From assembly GCA_900319645.1 (NCBI GenBank), contig ONPG01000020.1:16310-80309 (forward strand): 64,000 nt of DNA, in the 5' to 3' direction. This stretch comes from an uncultured Bacteroidales bacterium (lineage in GTDB: Bacteria > Bacteroidota > Bacteroidia > Bacteroidales > Paludibacteraceae). Positions 46,064 through 55,316 of this stretch are shown here, piece after piece; the stretch's first letter is position 1, and the number at the start of each line of letters is the position of its first letter. Made by a program: the position numbers and the translations under genes. Below the pieces are notes generated by a model. The model was given only the letters and a program-made list of their open reading frames with translations. It was not told the origin of the DNA and ran no database searches.

Positions 46064-46429
46064 CACCGTGGAATAGAGATTCCGCGCAATCACTTACGCC
46101 GAGCCTGCCGTGTGCAGGAGGGTTTGAGGGTGATTATTACATATTAAAAAAGGCGTTTATTGACGCTTTGTATTTGACGCACAAAAAGCTTAGCACACTT
46201 TTTTCATCAAACCAAAAGTCAAAACAAAGTAAAGCAATCAGACGCCTACGGGTATGACTATTCATACCTGCCTGCTGTTTTTTAGCAGGCGGTTTGTCAT
46301 ATCGGCGTAGGTTTCATTGTTGTTTATTTGACTTTTGGGGGTAAGTGCTAAGACCCTTGTGCATAGATGAGCAATAGCGAAGTCTGCGCTTTTTGGTGTA
46401 TATGCGTGCGTGCAAACAACTTATATATC
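46064..46429 (+). ncRNA. Long structured leader RNA of the CsgG/LPP20/peptide operon
   Basis: About 360 bases between promoter and first start codon. Stem-loops in order: GGAAT/ATTCC; AATCAC (46088-46093) with GTGATT (46130-46135) enclosing CCTGC/GCAGG; then nested stems CTTAGCAC (46189-46196)/GTGCTAAG (46345-46352), CCAAAAGTCAAA (46212-46223)/TTTGACTTTTGG (46327-46338), CAAT/ATTG, GCCTACG (46244-46250)/CGTAGG(T) (46306-46312), ATGAC/GTCAT, GCCTGCT (46270-46276)/AGCAGGC (46284-46290); finally AGCG/CGCT plus T tract near 46375-46396. It could be a cis-regulatory element or a separate RNA ended at that last hairpin. I cannot match it to a named family. Confidence 0.6.
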
Positions 46430-46894
46430 ATGAAGAGAAGTTTATTATTTTTAGGAATGCTTACTGCCGCAATGTTTGTTTGGGCGGATGATATTCCTGT
46501 CGGCTATATCGATTTGGGGTTGCCAAGTGGAACGCATTGGAAAGCAGTTGATGAGCCGGGATATTACACCTATCCTTCGGCGCGATATTATTTTGGCGAT
46601 GCGCTTCCTAATAAAGCACAAGTAGAAGAGTTGCTTTATAATTGCACATGGAAATGGACAGGCAAAGGCTATAAGGTAACCGGACCAAATCAGAACTCCA
46701 TCTATTTCCCGTTTAATGGTTATCAAGACTGTGATGAGGACTTGCATCAATATGGTTCAGCGGCTATGTTATGGACATTGGATAACACAGGTGCTAATTT
46801 TGCGTATTATTATATCCTATCGGATCGGCAACGAACGATTTTAGAGGACTCTAATTGCCGAGGATGTTCCGTCCGTCTTGTTATAAGCAAATAA
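46430..46894 (+). CDS. Small exported protein with Fibrobacter-major-paralogue-like domain
   Basis: 154 residues from the ATG at 46430; an upstream in-frame ATG (46367) lies in the structured leader. Signal peptide 1-19 (LLFLGMLTAAMFVWAD). The mature domain opens YIDLGLPSGTHWKAVDE and ends CSVRLVISK, the layout of the Fib_succ_major/DUF1566-like family common in Bacteroidales secreted proteins. Role unknown. First gene of the long operon. Confidence 0.75.
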   Translation: MKRSLLFLGMLTAAMFVWADDIPVGYIDLGLPSGTHWKAVDEPGYYTYPSARYYFGDALPNKAQVEELLYNCTWKWTGKGYKVTGPNQNSIYFPFNGYQDCDEDLHQYGSAAMLWTLDNTGANFAYYYILSDRQRTILEDSNCRGCSVRLVISK

Positions 46895-46919
46895 AATCAA
46901 ATAAATATCAGCGGAGGTA

Positions 46920-46945
46920 GCCGAAAAGCCAAAAGTGAGTAGGCG
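46920..46945 (+). repeat. 26-base intergenic motif, copy 1
   Basis: GCCGAAAAGCCAAAAGTGAG then TAGGCG, 20 bases before a CsgG-like gene. Copy 2 is at 47527-47552; they differ at two positions. Confidence 0.8.
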
Positions 46946-46965
46946 AAGAACTAAAATCTAAATAA

Positions 46966-47541
46966 ATGAAAAAAATTTTATCACTAATCTCCATTCTTGT
47001 CATCTCCTTACAGATTTATTCGCAAGACATCAAAAAAGTTGCTGTCCTTGAGACCGTTGATAAAGAGGCTAAATTATCTTATGGGCAAAAACTACTTTTG
47101 CGTAGTTGTTTGTCAAAATCCATTACAGATACTAAGGGCTACGAAGCATATGACCGTACTGATATTGACGCGATTTTATCAGAACAGGATTTTCAACGGA
47201 CTGGATTGGTTAATGAGGCAGAAATCAAACACATTGGAGAAATGGCAGGCGTATCTCTCATATTAATTCCGGAAGCAGCGCTCATGGACGAAAAGAATAT
47301 CTTTGTCACGGCAAAAATACTTGACGTGGAAAGTGCTAAAGTAGAATTAACGGAAAACATGATGATGGGATTATCAGCCAAAGAGATGGAGAAAGGCTGC
47401 AAAAGGCTATCTAAAAAATTATTTGGCGCTGAAACTAATGCTAATGCAATAGAGATTATTCAGACACTAGCTTGGCCATATGGTAGCATCAATAAGAAAA
47501 ATAAGGAGAATAAACAAAAGGAGGAAGCCGAAATGCCATAA
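46966..47541 (+). CDS. CsgG/LpoB-like exported protein 1
   Basis: 191 residues. Signal peptide 1-19 (LISILVISLQIYSQ) without lipobox. KKVAVLETVDKEAKLSYGQK, YEAYDRTDIDAILSEQDFQ, LVNEAEIKHIGEMAGVSLIL and FVTAKILDVESAKVELTENM follow the CsgG/LpoB-type alpha-beta fold (TolB-N-like). These domains bind at the outer membrane or work in envelope assembly. Closely related to the next gene; ends in a Lys/Glu tail. The stop lies within repeat copy 2. Confidence 0.8.
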   Translation: MKKILSLISILVISLQIYSQDIKKVAVLETVDKEAKLSYGQKLLLRSCLSKSITDTKGYEAYDRTDIDAILSEQDFQRTGLVNEAEIKHIGEMAGVSLILIPEAALMDEKNIFVTAKILDVESAKVELTENMMMGLSAKEMEKGCKRLSKKLFGAETNANAIEIIQTLAWPYGSINKKNKENKQKEEAEMP

Positions 47542-47552
47542 GTGAGTAGGCG
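47527..47552 (+). repeat. 26-base motif, copy 2
   Basis: GCCGAAATGCCATAAGTGAG then TAGGCG. It supplies the last codons and stop of CsgG-like gene 1 and lies 21 bases before CsgG-like gene 2. Confidence 0.8.
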
Positions 47553-47573
47553 TTAATAAATATTCAAAAAATC

Positions 47574-48755
47574 ATGAAAAAAATCTTTCTTTTTTGTCTT
47601 CTTATGCTGACCGCTTTGGTTTACGCAGATGAGGTGAAAAGAGTAGCCATTCTGGAGGTCGTAGACCGCGAGGGCAAACTATCGTACAGCCAGAAGTTAA
47701 TGCTTCGCAGCAATTTGGCGCGGGCAGTCACAAACACCAAGGGGTTTGAGGCATATGACCGCACGGATATGGATGCTATCTTCAGCGAGCACGATTTCCA
47801 GCGTTCGGGTAATGTGAGCGATTCACAAATCAAGAAATTGGGAGAAATGACTGGTGCCAGTTATATTCTGGTAGCGGAGGGTGTGTTGGCTGAAGCCGGT
47901 AAACTTTTTGTGACAGCAAAGATTCTGAATGTAGAATCTGCAAAAGTGGAAGTTACTGAAAACATGCTAATGGGCACCGCTTCTTCTGCCATGCAATACG
48001 GTTGTCGCGATTTGGCCAAAAAGATGTTTAGTTCGCTGAATAATCCATTTGTTTCTGCCTATAAGAATAAGGAGGACTCAATTGCTGCAGCAAAAAAAGC
48101 AGAACAACGCGCACAAGAGCAACGTATACGCGAAGAACGTGCCGCTGCAGAAGCTAAAGCGCGCAAGGAACGCGAGGATGCCATGTACGCAGTACGGGAA
48201 CAAAAAAGGCTGGAACAGGAACGCAAGAAGGCAGAAGAGGAAGAAAGAGCAAAGTATTATATCACCAGACTTAACAGCAATGAATACTTATACTTAAGTA
48301 ATACCATGAGTAGAAAGGAGTATGAGAACTTCTTAAAGAATAATTGTGCCGAGGCTTTCAGCCAATATCGTAGAGGGAAAAAACATATAATAGCTGGTTG
48401 GACATTATTCGGTGTGGGTTTAGCTGCCGGAGTAAGCGGAATCGTATACGGAACTCTTTCTGGAAACCAAACGACCATATCAAGCAGCCAAAGCACTACT
48501 ACTTCATACGACGGTACTACTTATTCAAGCACCACGTCACAATCTTCTTTTAAATTTAATGTTGTTGGAAGTATTTTGGCGGCAACCGGAAGTGGATTGG
48601 TTATTGCTTCTATTCCTACCTTAGCAGTTGGCTACTCAAAGCGCAACAAAGCATATAAAGTCTATAATAATCAGTGCGCTTCGCCTACTATTTCTCCATT
48701 ATCCCTAAATCTCACAGCCGGGCAAAATGGTTTAGGACTGGCATTGCAATTCTAA
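47574..48755 (+). CDS. CsgG/LpoB-like protein 2 with coiled coil and membrane segment
   Basis: 393 residues. Signal peptide 1-18. Residues 20-155 repeat the fold of gene 1 (KRVAILEVVDREGKLSYSQK, FEAYDRTDMDAIFSEHDFQR, FVTAKILNVESAKVEVTENM). Residues about 160-230 are a charged coiled coil (AEQRAQEQRIREERAAAEAK). Two hydrophobic stretches follow (AGWTLFGVGLAAGVSGIVYG and VVGSILAATGSGLVIASIPT) separated by a Ser/Thr loop. Probably anchored in the inner membrane or exposed at the envelope; function unknown. Confidence 0.8.
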   Translation: MKKIFLFCLLMLTALVYADEVKRVAILEVVDREGKLSYSQKLMLRSNLARAVTNTKGFEAYDRTDMDAIFSEHDFQRSGNVSDSQIKKLGEMTGASYILVAEGVLAEAGKLFVTAKILNVESAKVEVTENMLMGTASSAMQYGCRDLAKKMFSSLNNPFVSAYKNKEDSIAAAKKAEQRAQEQRIREERAAAEAKARKEREDAMYAVREQKRLEQERKKAEEEERAKYYITRLNSNEYLYLSNTMSRKEYENFLKNNCAEAFSQYRRGKKHIIAGWTLFGVGLAAGVSGIVYGTLSGNQTTISSSQSTTTSYDGTTYSSTTSQSSFKFNVVGSILAATGSGLVIASIPTLAVGYSKRNKAYKVYNNQCASPTISPLSLNLTAGQNGLGLALQF

Positions 48756-48791
48756 TACTAATATATTAATCAACTAAAAATTTTTACAACA

Positions 48792-49598
48792 ATGAAAAAG
48801 ATGACGTTTCTGGCTATCGTAATAGCCATGATGGCAGCAATCAGCATGCCGATGCAGGCGCAAAGCCGTAAAGACAAGAAAGCCGCTGCAAAAGCAGAAT
48901 GGGAAATGAAACAACAGCAACAACGCGAAGAGGCTGAACTCCGTCACCAAATGAAGATGGATAGTCTGCGGAATGTGCAACGCCAAAATGAAGAAATTGA
49001 GGCAGAAGCTAAAGCTGAACGTTTACGTACAGAGGCTGAACGCCGTGAGGCAGAGGCCGAGGCAAAAGCCGAAGCTAAACGTCAGGCAGCAGAATTGGCA
49101 GCACAAGAGAAAGATTTTGATGAGCCTTGTATGGAAGCAGGTTCAAGCGATTCCTACATCCGTGCTCGTGGCATTGGTGAGTCCCTCCAACAACAAATGG
49201 CACGAACCAAAGCACAGACCAATGCCGTGCGTGATTTAGGTGCCAAAATCAGTTCTGCGGTACAAGCGCTGATTAAGCATTATGCTAATGAAGAGACCAT
49301 TTCTGTAATGACAGATGATAGTTCGGCTGATGGAATGAGTTTTGAGGAGAAACTTCAAAATATGACAAAGCAGAAAATAGATCAAAACTTGTCGTTCAGT
49401 ACCTCTTGCGAGAAAACTCGTACGTACATGAAGAATAACAAGAAGATTTTCAAATGCTACATGACTATTCAAGCCGGCAAAGATGATCTGCTCAAACCTA
49501 TCTATGATGAACTGCAAAAAGAAGCAGAAAACAAACTGAATATTGACTATCAGAATTTCTCCGAGGAGTTTGATAAGGAGTTCAATAAGGCAGAATAA
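48792..49598 (+). CDS. LPP20-like exported protein 1 with coiled coil
   Basis: 268 residues. Signal peptide 1-24 (AIVIAMMAAISMPMQAQ). A long Ala/Glu/Arg coiled coil (about 28-105) is followed by an LPP20-like domain (IRARGIGESLQQQMARTKAQ, TNAVRDLGAKISSAVQ). LPP20-type domains occur in envelope lipoproteins, often next to CsgG-like proteins, as here. Unknown function. Confidence 0.75.
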   Translation: MKKMTFLAIVIAMMAAISMPMQAQSRKDKKAAAKAEWEMKQQQQREEAELRHQMKMDSLRNVQRQNEEIEAEAKAERLRTEAERREAEAEAKAEAKRQAAELAAQEKDFDEPCMEAGSSDSYIRARGIGESLQQQMARTKAQTNAVRDLGAKISSAVQALIKHYANEETISVMTDDSSADGMSFEEKLQNMTKQKIDQNLSFSTSCEKTRTYMKNNKKIFKCYMTIQAGKDDLLKPIYDELQKEAENKLNIDYQNFSEEFDKEFNKAE

Positions 49599-49624
49599 TA
49601 CTCTTTGTTCCCAAAATCATCGCT

Positions 49625-49649
49625 CCGAGGGAGCTGATACCTCCCTCGG
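49625..49649 (+). other. Strong intra-operon hairpin
   Basis: CCGAGGGAG (49625-49633), 7-base loop, CTCCCTCGG (49641-49649), with no T tract. It lies between the LPP20-like and next CsgG-like genes and may set mRNA stability or processing. Confidence 0.7.
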
Positions 49650-49678
49650 TCGCACAAATTTTAAAATTAACAAACAAT

Positions 49679-50409
49679 ATGAAAAAACTATTAATCCTTT
49701 TGCTTTCAGCCCTCTCGCTGACAGCAGTAGCGCAGCAGAAGAAAGTAGCTGTGTATGTAACAGGTCAACAGACAGGTATTAACAAAGTACTCGGTGATCA
49801 ATTGGTTGCCGCTTTTGCTAAGAGTGGCAAATACATCGCCATAGAGCGCACTGCCAGTTTCTTGGCAGAGTTAGGCAAGGAACAGAACTACCAACGTACA
49901 GGAGCCGTTGATGACAATGAGTTGTCTCGTTTAGGAAAACAATGCAAGAGTTGTTATCAGTAACCGATAAGATAGCTAAAGAATTGACTGCAAAAACGGT
50001 GCAGGAGAAAGCTGCAGAAGCAGCTGCGAAACAACGTGAATATGCAGAGAAAGAAATAACTTTAAAAGGGCAATTAGAACAAGGTTATATTCAGATTGCT
50101 AATTTATATGCAATTATTTCATTTTCTTCAGTTGCCTGGAATCAAACATCATCGATAGCATTAGAATGTCGCATCGGTGGTTTTTCCGAGTGGCGATTGC
50201 CAACCGCTACAGAGGTAAATATGGTAATACGTGGAATTAGGCAATATCAGTCAGAAAGTGAATTCTATCCAAATATTAGATCAATTTTATCTTCAATTGA
50301 AACAAGTGGGTATTTTTGGGCTGCAGACCATACTGCAGGAACCTTTCAAGGTAATAGACAATATTATAACGATAGCAACTTACTCATGCTAGTCCGTGAT
50401 GCTCAATAA
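49679..50409 (+). pseudogene. CsgG-like gene 3, broken by an internal deletion with frameshift
   Basis: The first frame (49679-49963) encodes a signal peptide nearly identical to those at 52713 and 54249 and about 75 residues of the CsgG-like domain, then goes out of frame at LGKQ (about 49937). A second frame (ATG 49942 to 50409) continues with LLSVTDKIAKELTAKTVQEK, coiled coil and a DUF1566/Fib_succ-like C-terminus (SSIALECRIGGFSEWRLPTA). Compared with the paralogue at 52713, about 70 residues are missing at the junction. The second frame might still be made from its own ATG. Its stop is 2 bases from the radical SAM start. Confidence 0.72.
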
Positions 50410-50411
50410 TT

Positions 50412-51619
50412 ATGCAAATAGAAAAGAAATATTTGTCTCTTCCGTTGACGGCGCAATTGGAGATTACGGATTATTGTAATCATCGGTGTGTGCATTGCTA
50501 TAATTTGGATTCGGAAGTACAGAACCGTCCCTCACGGAAAGTGAGCGACGAGACTGTGCTCGCCTGTGTGCAAAAATTGATTGACAATCAGATATTCAGT
50601 GTTATAGTAACCGGCGGTGAACCTTTGATAAAAAAGGAACTGACCAAGAAAGTCATTCTTCTTTTGAAAGAAAATCACACAAAAGTTGCACTTAATACTA
50701 ATCTTACTCTTGCTGATTGACCTCTTGTCCGTCCGGAGAGGAGAGTTCTTTTGCAAAATTGGTCGGCATAGATAACTACAAACTATTTGAAAGCAAAATC
50801 AAGAAATTGGTTGATGTCGGTGTACACTTTACTATTAATATGGTAGTGACTAAAGAGAACTTGCCTGAGATTAGAGTAACTGCCGAAAAAATGAAAGCGT
50901 TAGGCTGCAAGTCTTTTGCAGCAACTCCGATGGGTTTGAATGTCGAATATCCGCGGCTTGACTTATTGCTTAGTGTGGAAGATGTGCGGAAAGTGATTGC
51001 TGATTTGCTGTGGATTGAGGAAAATCTGAAGATGCGGGTAGATATATTAGAAGCACTGCCTAAATGTGTATTCCCAGAAGATGTGTTGAAAGGCAAACAC
51101 TCTTTCTTGAATAGAAAATGCCAAGCCGGAAGAACGGTCATTGCCGTTTCTTGTAATGGCGATGTGCGCCCGTGTGCGCATAATCCATATTCGTATGGAA
51201 ACTTGTTGGAAGAAGACTTGCGGGATATTTGGCAGCAAATGAGTGAATGGCGTTCTGCGAAATATGTGCCTGAAGAATGTAAAGATTGTTCATGGCTCAA
51301 TAGATGCAACGGCGGTTGCCGGACAAGTGCCAGAGTTTATAGTGGGGATTGGGACAAAAAAGATATGTGGTGTACCGGTAAATTAACCATGCCTGCACCG
51401 AGAAACGAGCAACCGGAAATAGAATTGCAGCCGGACACTCAACTGCAAATCGTTGATAACATTAAAATCCGCCATGAGGATGAGGTTAGTTTACAGGAAC
51501 TGCCAATAACTACTTTTGGAGAGTTGTGCTGTAAGTTTGATGTGTTGCCAGAGGACAAATACATCAATGACGCAATAACATTTCTGATAAACAAGAAAAT
51601 CATAAAAATAATCAAATAA
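50412..51619 (+). pseudogene. Radical SAM/SPASM peptide maturase, frameshifted
   Basis: Frame 1 (50412-50720, 102 residues) has the 4Fe-4S motif CNHRCVHC (Cys22, 26, 29) and VIVTGGEPL (SAM site). It stops at TGA after TNLTLAD. Frame 2, shifted by -1 (from about 50717 to 51619), continues with SCPSGEESSFAKLVGIDNYK, the rest of the barrel and a SPASM domain (CQAGRTVIAVSCNGDVRPC, CKDCSWLNRCNGGC). About 15-20 residues usual at this point are missing, so a small deletion, not a programmed shift, is likely; a read error is possible. Such enzymes install thioether or C-C crosslinks in precursor peptides, and two candidates follow directly. Confidence 0.83.
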
Positions 51620-51622
51620 CTG

Positions 51623-51829
51623 ATGCTTATGAAAACAGATTCAAAAGAAATGGTAGCTTATGATTTCAGCAACATAAACTATCAAGAGAGTGGCAGTAGT
51701 AATTGCTTTGCATCGCCTTGTGATGAGCCGGTTTGTGACTGTGACTGTGATTCTGATCATTGTGATGAGTGCGATTGCGATGTGTGTGATTCAGGAGGAT
51801 GTGACACCTGTGATTATTATGAAGAATAA
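51623..51829 (+). CDS. Cys-Asp repeat precursor-like peptide A
   Basis: 68 residues (or 66 from the ATG at 51629). Leader: VAYDFSNINYQESGSSNCF, shared with peptide B. Core: 11 Cys in all; from Cys33 on, each of the ten Cys is followed by Asp (CDCDCDSDHCDECDCDVCD, then two further CD). Ends YYEE. No signal peptide, no lipobox. It lies 3 bases after the radical SAM gene and is most likely its modification substrate (RiPP precursor). Metal binding without modification is the alternative. Confidence 0.78.
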   Translation: MLMKTDSKEMVAYDFSNINYQESGSSNCFASPCDEPVCDCDCDSDHCDECDCDVCDSGGCDTCDYYEE

Positions 51830-51844
51830 ACAACTATAATAAAA

Positions 51845-52006
51845 ATGAAAATAGATTTAACGAAAATCATTGCATTTGATTTTAGCAATTTGAATTTGCA
51901 AGAGAATAGCGTCAACAACTGCTTTGGATGTGATTCTTGCGATTGTAATTGTGACTGTGATGCAGGTGACTGTGACTGCAATAATTATTGCGATAATGAT
52001 TGGTGA
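51845..52006 (+). CDS. Cys-Asp/Asn repeat precursor-like peptide B
   Basis: 53 residues. Leader IIAFDFSNLNLQENSVNNCF matches peptide A. Nine Cys; all eight after the first are followed by Asp (6) or Asn (2), e.g. CDSCDCNCDCD. Ends NDW. Its stop TGA overlaps the ATG of the following membrane protein (TGATG), so the two are translationally coupled. Confidence 0.75.
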   Translation: MKIDLTKIIAFDFSNLNLQENSVNNCFGCDSCDCNCDCDAGDCDCNNYCDNDW

Positions 52007-52716
52007 TGAGAAACAAAATTAAGCAACATACGCTTATAGGTATAGTGGCAGGATTGTGGTTGTTAGGTCTAATATCTTCAATCTTATGGTGTGTACTATC
52101 AGGAAAAGGAAATGGTCCTGATATTATAATCACTGCAGTTAGTGCATTATTTTCTGGAATAGCCTTAATAATTGCCTATTGGGGTATATATCGGCAAAGC
52201 AATGATTTGAATAGGCAAATAGATGTTGATATTTTCACAAGAACAATAGGTGGAATTATAGATTCGCAAAAATTCTACGAAAGTCGTGTTTATATATTTT
52301 CCAATGATTACAATAGAGATATTGAAAAAATTAAAAGACTTCTAGGGAAAGAAGATATTAGTCTTAATGATATAAAAAATTTATGTTATAAGAGAGGGCA
52401 GAAGCATATTAAGATAAAACCCCAAGAAAAAGAAGAATTACGCAAGTCTTATGAGAAAATCCTTCATTTTTGTTCTAAATTAGAATATCTTGGTGTCATT
52501 TATGAATCAGAAGTAGCAGATGAGATCATTATTGACTACTATGGGGCGACTATTACGGAATCCTATCAAATATTAGAATCGTTAATTACTTCGGCTAACA
52601 ATAAGCATATTAGTTTGTACCCTCATTATACACATCTATATAATCGCGCAAGGGTGAGAGAAGAATTATTTCAACAAATAGTACAAACACTATTAAAGAA
52701 AACAATAGAAAAATGA
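52006..52716 (+). CDS. DUF4760-like membrane protein
   Basis: 236 residues from the ATG at 52006. Two membrane helices near the N-terminus (LIGIVAGLWLLGLISSILWC, then IITAVSALFSGIALIIAYWG), followed by a helical cytoplasmic part (NDLNRQIDVDIFTRTIGGII onward) typical of DUF4760. Base composition is clearly AT-richer than neighbours, as for the peptide and maturase genes, suggesting joint transfer. It could serve as immunity or export aid for the peptides, or be unrelated cargo. Overlaps the next gene by 4 bases. Confidence 0.72.
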   Translation: MRNKIKQHTLIGIVAGLWLLGLISSILWCVLSGKGNGPDIIITAVSALFSGIALIIAYWGIYRQSNDLNRQIDVDIFTRTIGGIIDSQKFYESRVYIFSNDYNRDIEKIKRLLGKEDISLNDIKNLCYKRGQKHIKIKPQEKEELRKSYEKILHFCSKLEYLGVIYESEVADEIIIDYYGATITESYQILESLITSANNKHISLYPHYTHLYNRARVREELFQQIVQTLLKKTIEK

Positions 52717-54212
52717 AAAAACTATTAATCATTTTGCTTTCAGCCCTCTCGCTGACGGCAGTAGCGCAACAGAAACCGAAAATCGCTGTTTACATGACAG
52801 GCGATGACCCTGTTAATGAAATTGTGTCTAACCGTTTAGTGGATGACTTTGCGCGTGGTAATGAGTATACTACCGTGGAGCGAACAGCCAGTTTCTTAGC
52901 AGAACTATCCAAAGAACATGCATACGAACGTTCCGGCGAAGTGGATGACGAGCAGATTGCTGCTTTGGGACGGCAATTTAACGTCCAGTATGTCTGCGTC
53001 GTTTCTGTATTAGATGTGTGGAATACAGAAAAATATATTACTGCTCGCATCATAGATACCGAGACCGCAGAAGTGATAGCGTCTTGTAGTTCCAATGGTT
53101 CTATACAGAACAGTTCAGAACTTATTGGTGCACTCAATACTCTTTCAGAGAGTTTCTTCAAGGCAATGCGTTCTTCTAAACAGGATGACGCCAAGAAGGT
53201 AGCAGTATATGTTTCCAAGACAGGCAACCGCGATGTGGATATTGTTCTTGGTGATCAATTGGTATCAGGTTTTGCAAGAAGTGGTCGCTATGTGGCGATA
53301 GAACGTACCAATAGTTTTTTGAAGAAATTGAAAGATGAGCAAGGATATCAACAATCAGGTGCAGTAGCTGATGATGACCTTACGCGTTGGGGACAACAAT
53401 TCGGTGTGCAATATGTGTGCATAGCCAAATCGACCTCATGGGCAGGCGATTATTTTATTACTACCAGAATGGTGGATGTGAAGACGGGTGAAGTGGTAAA
53501 TAGTTACAAGATAGAGGGAAGAAAACTTGGCAACTCAAGGGATGTTGTACAAGTAGCACAAGAAATTGCAGCTGAACTTTCCAAGGGAACACTTGCCGAA
53601 CAAGCAGAGGAAGCACGATTGAAAGAAGAAGCAGAAAAAGCAAGACTTAGAGCTATTGAGGAAGCTCGTTTGAAAGCAGAAACAGAGGAAAGGGCAAGAA
53701 TAGAAGCGGAAGAAAGAGAACAACAAAGGAAAGTTGAGGAAAAGAAAGCAGAATTGAGAGAATTTTTAAGAAAGGGGTATGTGATTATAACCAAAGATAA
53801 CAAAAAATATATGATTTGTTTAAACTTATTGACAAATCTAAAAGGTCGGGATGTAAAAGCGGCAGTAAAAGCAAAAAAAAGATATGCAGTATGCGGGTTC
53901 ACTGATTGGGAAATAGGTTGTTTTATCCTGTATCGCGAACAAATCTCAGAAATAGCATCTGAATACTTGCATTACTTAAACATCACTCTTCCAATATGTA
54001 AATCAGGGCAAGATTTATGGGTGACATGTTTTGATAATGACATTTTTTACATAGTTAGGGAAACGCGGATGGATATTAAACTTAAAGATTATCAATATAT
54101 AGATGGAACAGATAAATTATATGATTTCCGATGGACTCATTATCGAGGGGAATCTGGATCTTCTGTTCAAAGCGAGTATGCAAATGCTATCTTGATAAGA
54201 GAAGTTAGATAA
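52713..54212 (+). CDS. CsgG/LpoB-like protein 4 with duplicated domain
   Basis: 499 residues. Signal peptide 1-19 (LLIILLSALSLTAVAQQ). Two CsgG-like domains in tandem (about 20-150 and 165-285), each with a VERTASFL/IERTNSFL motif and QFNVQYVCV/QFGVQYVCI. Then a Glu/Ala/Arg coiled coil (about 295-355) and a C-terminal domain of about 140 residues (YAVCGFTDWEIGCFILYRE) resembling DUF1566-type ends. Translationally coupled to the DUF4760-like gene. Confidence 0.8.
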   Translation: MKKLLIILLSALSLTAVAQQKPKIAVYMTGDDPVNEIVSNRLVDDFARGNEYTTVERTASFLAELSKEHAYERSGEVDDEQIAALGRQFNVQYVCVVSVLDVWNTEKYITARIIDTETAEVIASCSSNGSIQNSSELIGALNTLSESFFKAMRSSKQDDAKKVAVYVSKTGNRDVDIVLGDQLVSGFARSGRYVAIERTNSFLKKLKDEQGYQQSGAVADDDLTRWGQQFGVQYVCIAKSTSWAGDYFITTRMVDVKTGEVVNSYKIEGRKLGNSRDVVQVAQEIAAELSKGTLAEQAEEARLKEEAEKARLRAIEEARLKAETEERARIEAEEREQQRKVEEKKAELREFLRKGYVIITKDNKKYMICLNLLTNLKGRDVKAAVKAKKRYAVCGFTDWEIGCFILYREQISEIASEYLHYLNITLPICKSGQDLWVTCFDNDIFYIVRETRMDIKLKDYQYIDGTDKLYDFRWTHYRGESGSSVQSEYANAILIREVR

Positions 54213-54248
54213 TTAAAGATAGTTCAAAAAGTACAGATTTATTAGAGT

Positions 54249-55316
54249 ATGCAAAAACTATTAATCCTTTTGCTCTCAGCCCTCTCGCTGACAGCGGTGG
54301 CACAGAAACCCAATTGGGTAGATGATGCTTCACGGGCAACAAACTACACGAAGAACTCGTATTTTACCGGCATTGCCTATGGAGAAGTACGGAGTGGCGA
54401 GGCAGTTGGCGCTGCCATGGAGCGTGTGAAAACAGCGGCTCGGGTTGAGGCGTTGAGCACTATCCGTATTCATGTCCAGAATGAAACAGAAAGCAATACG
54501 CATAGCGAGAGTGTCGAATCCATTGACGAATGGTCGGAGTCTATCAGAGAAACCTTTGATAGTAAAACAAAGACCAAAGTGGATCTGGATATCCCGGGGC
54601 TGCAAGTTGAAGCATGGAAAAATCCCAATAGTAATGAAGTCATCGGATTTGCGTACATCAAAAAATCCACACTCTCTCGCCAAATGGTTAAACAGATTAC
54701 AGCGGGTCTTACACGCATTGAGACCATCTTGGACAATGCGGATCAACAAATAGCGCAAGGCCAGAAAATGGAAGCGCGCAATGCGATAAATAATGCTATT
54801 CCATTGTTTCAACAAGTAGAACAGGCGCAGCATATACTCATTGTCGCTGATCCTACGAGCGATGCAGAAAGCCTGCAATTAGCCGAAACCAAACAATTGG
54901 CGCAACGATTTATACGCATGTCTGCTTCCCTCAAAAACGGAATAAACATCTATTTGGACTGCAAGGCAGATTTGTTTGGCAGCAATTATCCCACATTGAA
55001 AAGTGAGATACAAGGCGCATTGAGTCCAATGGGATGTACTTTTGTGCGTTCTGCCGCAGAGGCGGACTGGATTATAACAGTCTTTGCTAAGGCGCGTGAG
55101 TACAATAAGAGTGATTTCGGGAGCGTAAGTTCGTATTTCGCATATGTAGATGCCAATATCGCCATAGACAAGAATGCTACCAGTCAGCGAATCTATGAAG
55201 ATGCCATCAGTATGAAGGGTGGTCATACTCACAATTTCGAGCAAGCTGCGCGCGATGCGTATAAACAGATTTCACCCAAAATCAGCAAAATCATTAATGA
55301 ACAAATACAACAATAA
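54249..55316 (+). CDS. LPP20-like exported protein 2
   Basis: 355 residues. Signal peptide 1-18, almost the same at DNA level as in genes 49679 and 52713. An LPP20-like domain (about 20-160: YFTGIAYGEVRSGEAVGAAM, VEALSTIRIHVQNETES), a helical middle, then a further alpha-beta domain (INIYLDCKADLFGS, ADWIITVFAKAREY). Last gene of the operon. Confidence 0.78.
   Translation: MQKLLILLLSALSLTAVAQKPNWVDDASRATNYTKNSYFTGIAYGEVRSGEAVGAAMERVKTAARVEALSTIRIHVQNETESNTHSESVESIDEWSESIRETFDSKTKTKVDLDIPGLQVEAWKNPNSNEVIGFAYIKKSTLSRQMVKQITAGLTRIETILDNADQQIAQGQKMEARNAINNAIPLFQQVEQAQHILIVADPTSDAESLQLAETKQLAQRFIRMSASLKNGINIYLDCKADLFGSNYPTLKSEIQGALSPMGCTFVRSAAEADWIITVFAKAREYNKSDFGSVSSYFAYVDANIAIDKNATSQRIYEDAISMKGGHTHNFEQAARDAYKQISPKISKIINEQIQQ

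Follow-up and report, generated by a model that had tools for sequence, protein, structure and literature searches.

A conserved Bacteroidales operon of a radical SAM/SPASM enzyme and peptides rich in Cys-Asp/Asn pairs, apparently a peptide family without a name

The peptide operon, its relatives and its distribution

The window, a 64,000-nucleotide stretch of contig ONPG01000020.1 (assembly GCA_900319645.1) from an uncultured Bacteroidales bacterium of the Paludibacteraceae, carries at positions 50412-52716 of the plus strand a radical S-adenosylmethionine (SAM)/SPASM maturase in two overlapping open reading frames (ORFs) of different frame, followed by two short genes for peptides A and B and by a gene for a DUF4760-like protein. 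A first-pass annotation of the DNA had put this locus forward as a candidate new family of ribosomally synthesized and post-translationally modified peptides (RiPPs). Its gene arrangement was recovered as described, with two short genes of common leader directly after the maturase and a DUF4760-like gene behind them, and both maturase domains were recognized by Pfam, though in two frames, the gene being broken. The features of the operon are:

50412..50720, plus strand, N-terminal piece of the maturase (Pfam Radical_SAM, E 4.9e-14; CX3CX2C motif; columns 1-102 of the intact homologues)
50717..51619, plus strand, C-terminal piece of the maturase (Pfam SPASM, E 8.7e-11; remainder of the barrel, all seven cysteines of the SPASM domain, and what is left of the C-terminal domain)
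51623..51829, plus strand, precursor peptide A, 68 amino acids (leader and core; 11 Cys; 14-row precursor model, E 5.9e-14)
51845..52006, plus strand, precursor peptide B, 53 amino acids (leader and core; 9 Cys; 14-row precursor model, E 1.1e-22)
52006..52716, plus strand, DUF4760-like protein (Pfam DUF4760, 29.8 bits against a gathering score of 25)

Peptides A and B are themselves rows of the precursor model that matches them. The DUF4760-like gene overlaps the stop codon of peptide B by 1 base, and a TTG start is possible at 52000.

Two peptide patterns, scanned once against a collection of 84,980 species genomes, returned seven further loci, L010-L016, in metagenome-assembled genomes titled water buffalo, yak (two), sheep, RUG (two) and UBA1253, four of the seven titles denoting the ruminant gut. 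The DNA of UBA1253 (L014) is identical to that of the window's genus-mate G1002 at 15 compared spots. Each of these relatives has an intact maturase of 439-444 amino acids, 1 or 2 precursor genes directly after it and a DUF4760-like protein, such that the same gene order is found in all eight loci, with a gap of -1 to 11 bases between maturase and precursor. In 8/8 loci, a short gene for a precursor, its leader conserved and its core variable, thus stands beside a modifying enzyme, and the pairing of peptides and maturase in seven other genomes supports the proposal of a new RiPP family. In six of the seven relatives, a helix-turn-helix-like short ORF lies 69-138 bases upstream of the maturase (the one of L010, when scanned, matched HTH_26 at E 1.9e-6); none was seen upstream of the maturase in L014 or the window, where CsgG-like genes are present instead.

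The order, family, genus and phylum samples of genomes searched for the maturase partly overlap. At E <= 1e-25, the maturase was matched in 3 of 393 genomes of the order sample, the window's own among them; matches were also found in 3 of 104 and 1 of 31 genomes from the families of two carriers, in 2 of 151 genomes of the window's genus, and in 1 of 395 genomes of the phylum sample (the window's own), where no other maturase was found at E <= 1e-40. When a sample of the order equal in size and tallies (393 genomes, 206 genera) was searched with the 14-precursor model, strong matches (E <= 6e-14) occurred only in G000, G245 and G278, the same three genomes that hold the maturase; the best peptide match in each lies between E 1.1e-22 and 1.4e-19, the peptides of these genomes being rows of the model. 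In the genomes searched, the peptides are thus neither unpaired elsewhere nor widespread without a maturase, the two outcomes that the first-pass annotation had named as speaking against a family.

Ten more genomes of the order sample gave peptide matches that are weak (E 6.5e-4 to 0.009) and look fortuitous. The maturase model had no match in any of these ten loci, covered to at most about 1.5 kb on each side, and eight of the ten matches lie inside one conserved protein of about 490 residues (L055-L058, L060-L062 and L064), whose leader-resembling stretch, FGAINLEDISQPNCF, was judged a chance likeness. The remaining two are L059, with a leader-like stretch and two pairs of Cys with Asp or Asn (C-[DN]) antisense to a 391-codon frame, and L063, with a short leader-like stretch that lacks a C-[DN] core. 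Peptide A alone as query found no relatives in 100 nearby genomes. One pattern scan of viral contigs gave no maturase relative, and plasmids gave only distant radical SAM proteins (4 records, each below 26% identity), of which one on a Paenibacillus plasmid adjoins a second radical SAM gene and an AsnC regulator. PADLOC matches were limited to general radical SAM (viperin) hits and one weak hit to CARF.

When compared to the intact maturase of L014, from the same genus, the window copy lacks 43 bases at the 50717/50718 join, shifting the frame such that ORF 50412-50720 ends at a premature stop, and 72 bases between 51452 and 51465, spread over four neighboring alignment gaps in the C-terminal domain. 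The copy keeps the CX3CX2C motif and the SPASM cysteines, but across two frames. Third codon positions account for most of the differences from L014 (49 of 67, then 120 of 170), and the protein identities are 88% and 84%; constraint on the gene therefore probably lasted until recent times. The window's own assembly is 84% complete and the searches found no other maturase copy in it. A working system in this strain was rejected, since the maturase is split, part of its C-terminal domain is gone and it is the only copy found. With the maturase broken in this genome, the peptides there are probably unmodified. If the assembly is right, the copy is decaying; the deletions may be real or an assembly error.

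Leader and cysteine pattern of the precursors

Across the family, the leader reads YDFSNLxLQENSxxNC[FY], with AYDFSNINYQE in peptide A and AFDFSNLNLQE in peptide B, both continuing to NCF as first described. The first Cys stands within NC[FY] in 14/14 precursors, the choice between Phe and Tyr varying. In peptide A, all 10 non-first Cys are followed by Asp, and in peptide B all 8 by Asp or Asn; the counts came out the same as in the first-pass annotation when taken again. With Cys held fixed and the other core letters shuffled, the count of peptide A was reached in 0 of 20,000 shuffles and that of peptide B in 1.0%, peptide B being weaker on its own owing to the abundance of Asp/Asn in its core. 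The rule, strict in both window peptides, is slightly looser family-wide: Asp or Asn follows 95 of the 102 non-first Cys in the 14 peptides (99 of 102 when Glu is included), the residues being D 73, N 22, E 4, and V, C and S 1 each. The shuffle expectation for Asp or Asn was 53.5 +/- 3.9, with a maximum of 69 in 5,000 (Cys fixed, within cores), a control that, like the one for long gaps, treats 14 related peptides as independent.

The spacings C-x-C and C-x-x-C, described earlier as alternating, make up most of the 102 gaps between Cys (25 and 53, respectively), while the full range is 1 to 9. Nineteen of the 20 non-first Cys whose next Cys is at least 4 away still obey C-[DN]. Both Cys codons (TGT 63, TGC 39) and all four Asp/Asn codons are used, so that a simple DNA repeat does not account for the pattern. 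The same codon variety, together with the co-occurrence of peptide and maturase, led to the rejection of chance or low complexity as its source.

Adjacency had also been taken to separate these peptides from the CX3D ranthipeptides, and this is not supported for strict adjacency by itself: with Cys spacings of mostly 2 or 3, an Asp or Asn that follows one Cys stands at the same time at +3 or +4 from the Cys before it, a PapB-type spacing. For 93 of the 102 non-last Cys, Asp, Asn or Glu is found at +3 or +4, a result largely implied by the C-[DN] rule in combination with Cys spacings of mostly 2-3. Where the gap is at least 5, the count is 14 of 16 versus 10.4 expected (P 0.027), a weak basis, as five measures were tried and the sequences are related. 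In an alternative reading of the pattern, each Asp or Asn may serve the preceding Cys (+3/+4) rather than the adjacent one, which would explain why the first Cys alone is without an Asp or Asn of its own. Strict adjacency by itself leaves the ring topology unsettled.

No cut-off of an NCBIfam or Pfam model was reached by the five precursors, out of 14, that were scanned: both window peptides, two from L010 and one from L013. Peptide B gave weak hits only, to TIGR04135 (10.5 bits versus 45) and to one Pfam model (E 0.34).

The maturase and the neighboring genes

The seven intact maturases are 70-83% identical to each other, and all seven contain CX3CX2C and the full seven-Cys SPASM set (C251, C269, C304, C307, C313, C317 and C335 in L010 numbering). 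Two of them were scanned with NCBIfam, and among the best 25 of 83 families for each the nearest were GeoRSP, heme b synthase, NirJ2, DynA and PapB, all far below their cut-offs, with PapB second-best for the L013 maturase (E 1.6e-25). In a six-frame search, the PapB model (NF047865) gave 76-91 bits for five intact maturases. This maturase family is the best PapB-model match in G278, G500 and G1002 (about 80 bits); in G000, which has the split copy, another enzyme is. The C-terminal ~80 residues (357-438) were modeled by AlphaFold as strands followed by three helices, with a predicted local distance difference test score (pLDDT) of 63-89 for this block. Aligned by hhalign with 15 PqqD-domain sequences, this domain gave a weak match that is co-linear over the full length (score 20.1; 60 column shuffles at most 18.9), and a comparison with Protein Data Bank (PDB) sequences found no RiPP recognition element (best E 0.18).

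A DUF4760-related gene occupies the same place in 8/8 loci, with a shorter N-terminus in L011 and L014. Three of the eight proteins were scanned with Pfam DUF4760 (PF15956), whose gathering score of 25 was exceeded in the window (29.8 bits) and in L013 (37.0) and was not reached in L010 (14.4). The AlphaFold model (pLDDT 78) predicts two long N-terminal helices, by eye likely membrane helices, and a helical domain; a model of the DUF4760-like proteins had no PDB match at E <= 0.001. Identity between loci is 27-67%, versus 70-83% for the intact maturases; such divergence would suit a partner evolving along with the product, as an immunity or receptor protein might. Co-variation with the DUF4760-like protein was absent for the first precursor (r 0.03) and for the maturase (r -0.13).

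Two further features in the window flank the operon:

52713..54212, plus strand, CsgG/FlgO-like protein (Pfam CsgG, E 3.9e-8; signal-peptide-like start by eye)
49679..50409, plus strand, upstream CsgG-like/Lcl_C-like gene in two ORFs, 49679-49963 and 49942-50409

The downstream gene overlaps the DUF4760-like gene by 4 bases and is a probable member of the operon. Upstream, ORF 49679-49963 resembles 52713-54212 (phmmer E 5.6e-28), and ORF 49942-50409 matches Lcl_C at E 8.6e-6, below the Pfam gathering score. This upstream gene is seemingly split by a frame shift, as is the adjoining maturase, through local decay or an assembly problem. The peptide operon sits inside an array of CsgG-like, Lcl_C/Fib_succ-type and related genes at 46367-55316 on the plus strand.

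Among the next two genes downstream on the same strand, CsgG-domain proteins are present in 4/8 loci (window, L010, L012 and L014), Lcl_C/Fib_succ-type proteins in L011 and L015, and, in L013 and L016, a family with signal-like starts that occurs in L010 too. A six-frame search for CsgG in six carrier genomes (E <= 0.001) gave 3 hits, all in the operon neighborhood, and the sole Pfam CsgG hit in the window's genome lies within 46367-55316; the search undercounts, as it missed the L010 and L012 copies. The association with Lcl_C is weaker because Lcl_C is common in some carriers (26 in one genome).

Proposed modification and comparison with known systems

On balance, we favor a RiPP operon in which a leader-guided maturase makes Cys-Asp/Asn links in a product that has a membrane partner. 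The N-terminal leader of the precursor (about 25 residues, YDFSNLxLQENSxxN) would be recognized by the maturase, probably through its putative C-terminal PqqD-like domain. The acceptor of the link would be the Asp or Asn right after the Cys or, more conservatively, one at a distance of three or four residues, in most cases the position that follows the next Cys. The product would then encounter the DUF4760-like membrane protein, possibly serving as its immunity protein or receptor, and at many loci also a secreted CsgG-like or Lcl_C/Fib_succ-type protein. By analogy with the ranthipeptides, Cys-to-Asp/Asn thioethers are the likeliest product; as in the first-pass annotation, the modification is inferred.

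It is a good deal more doubtful that a natural maturase joins each Cys to the very next Asp or Asn (CX0[D/N]), which would give up to ten tandem seven-membered thioether rings. If the rings are adjacent here, the ring type would be one not known from nature. The cores are so rich in Cys-Asp/Asn pairs that adjacent and spaced thioethers should be separable by mass spectrometry. The only precedent we know for a CX0 ring comes from PapB, which closes it incompletely in a synthetic peptide (PMC9413430, available parts). PapB is a SPASM enzyme that joins Cys to the beta-carbon of Asp in CX3D. According to the same parts, it requires Arg372 for activity, and on synthetic peptides it accepts spacers of 0-6 residues from Cys to Asp, the reaction being complete at 1-5 and incomplete at 0 and 6. 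The available text of other papers adds that Cys is bound at one auxiliary cluster of PapB (PMC10470005) and that Asn is the thioether acceptor in NxxcA (PMC8326336, PMC11002830).

Several observations weigh against this explanation of the operon. Because the core is so rich in Asp/Asn, CX0, CX2 and CX3 pairings are indistinguishable, and PapB, in the available parts of PMC9413430, prefers CX3D over CX0D in nested peptides and leaves CX0D incomplete. No equivalog cut-off was reached among the best 25 models for either maturase scanned, PapB giving 79 and 90 bits versus 340 and GeoRSP 99-104 versus 400, and G245 and G555 have another enzyme nearer the PapB model (about 135 bits versus 91 and 76). 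The AlphaFold model of the maturase is poor overall (pLDDT 56), the PqqD-like match is weak (hhalign probability 7.8%), and the C-terminal domain has no Pfam or NCBIfam hit. The relation between adjacent-core identity and DUF4760-like identity is suggestive at most and not significant (r 0.26, p 0.054; 28 pairs, 8 loci), and no protease or ABC exporter was recognized among the inspected neighbor genes, partly by eye.

The enzyme may instead form alpha-carbon thioethers of the sactipeptide type, or oxidize or epimerize Asp, Asn or Cys side chains, as in the conversion of Cys to formylglycine, with Cys-Asp/Asn serving only as a recognition unit. We consider this possible though unlikely. A maturase profile compared with PDB sequences ranked anaerobic sulfatase-maturating enzymes, whose reaction is the formylglycine example, first (E ~2e-10), followed by SkfB (1e-7), PqqE, SuiB and 5wgg, which we take to be CteB; Foldseek, working from the poor AlphaFold model, placed SkfB and SuiB first, and sequence points to no single chemistry. 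Multiple two-residue links nevertheless fit peptides with up to 11 Cys, nearly each with its Asp or Asn, better than the oxidation of single residues does, and Asp and Asn are known beta-carbon acceptors.

Less probable again is that the peptides mainly bind metal, in the manner of metallothioneins with Cys and carboxylate ligands, and that modification by the enzyme is confined to a few residues, such as NC[FY] at the border of leader and core. The C-x-C and C-x-x-C spacings with Asp or Asn at nearly every Cys, and the NC[FY] site in all 14 precursors, are consistent with such a role, but a metal store would not usually be coupled so tightly to a SPASM enzyme or vary in its core from locus to locus, and no metal-resistance or uptake gene was recognized among the inspected adjacent genes, partly by eye. 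That there is no RiPP system at all, the short ORFs being spurious or structural and the maturase acting on another protein such as the neighboring secreted ones, is very improbable given the conserved leader and spacing, the codon variety and the co-occurrence of peptide and maturase, even though the product is not known and a secreted CsgG-like, Lcl_C-like or third-family protein is nearby in 8/8 loci.

The operon is real and conserved and appears to represent a radical SAM/SPASM RiPP family without a name, an addition to the Bacteroidales that comes mostly from the ruminant gut going by four of the seven record titles. It also links CsgG-like proteins and the little-studied DUF4760 domain, named in one paper of the open-access literature searched, to a peptide system. 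Among the titles and abstract openings listed in searches of that literature, none concerns the C-[DN] peptide family, subscription papers being mostly outside this scope, and no such peptides appear in the available parts of a Bacteroidales RiPP mining study (PMC10352776) and a study of rumen bacteriocins (PMC13289728).

Among named systems, GeoRSP (TIGR04303) provides the closest maturase model by E-value among the best 25 of 83 (3e-28 and 1e-29), at a score far from its cut-off of 400 bits. SCIFF/thermocellin with CteB (TIGR03973/TIGR03974) is alike in its Cys-rich core and SPASM maturase, and TIGR03973 had no match at E <= 1 among the five scanned precursors. FibroRumin (TIGR04135) shares the Cys-rich core, the C-x-C spacing and the position beside a radical SAM enzyme. 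Membership in it was rejected, as peptide B, the only one matching of the five scanned, scores far below the cut-off; a search of 5 genomes gave no TIGR04135 match at the C-[DN] loci. A model of the cognate FibroRumin maturase exists, and it is not among the best 25 of 83 families for either of the two intact maturases. G555, which carries a C-[DN] operon, also encodes at L017 (1471-3029) a second Cys-rich peptide beside its own radical SAM enzyme, with the core STCSCSCNCTCGCNCN of alternating CxC and a TIGR04135 score of 22.5 bits versus 45.

NxxcA of Streptococcus, with a Cys-Asn beta-thioether, is alike in that Asn accepts the Cys thioether, and differs in its single link, with the Asn before the Cys (PMC8326336, available parts), and in adjoining a quorum-sensing system (PMC11002830, available parts). 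The ranthipeptide freyrasin, made from PapA by PapB with Cys-Asp beta-thioethers, likewise has a SPASM enzyme beside a Cys/Asp-rich precursor with repeated Cys and Asp, and CX3D, the freyrasin spacing, is present at many places in the cores of the C-[DN] operon, where C-[DN] at Cys spacings of 2-3 largely implies it. Unlike PapA, these cores keep adjacent C-[DN] over variable Cys spacing and use Asn as well as Asp, and their maturase falls far under the PapB cut-off (79-90 of 340 bits). The C-[DN] operon is further set apart from PapA-PapB by its place in the Bacteroidales, its apparent C-terminal leader-binding domain and its DUF4760-like partner.

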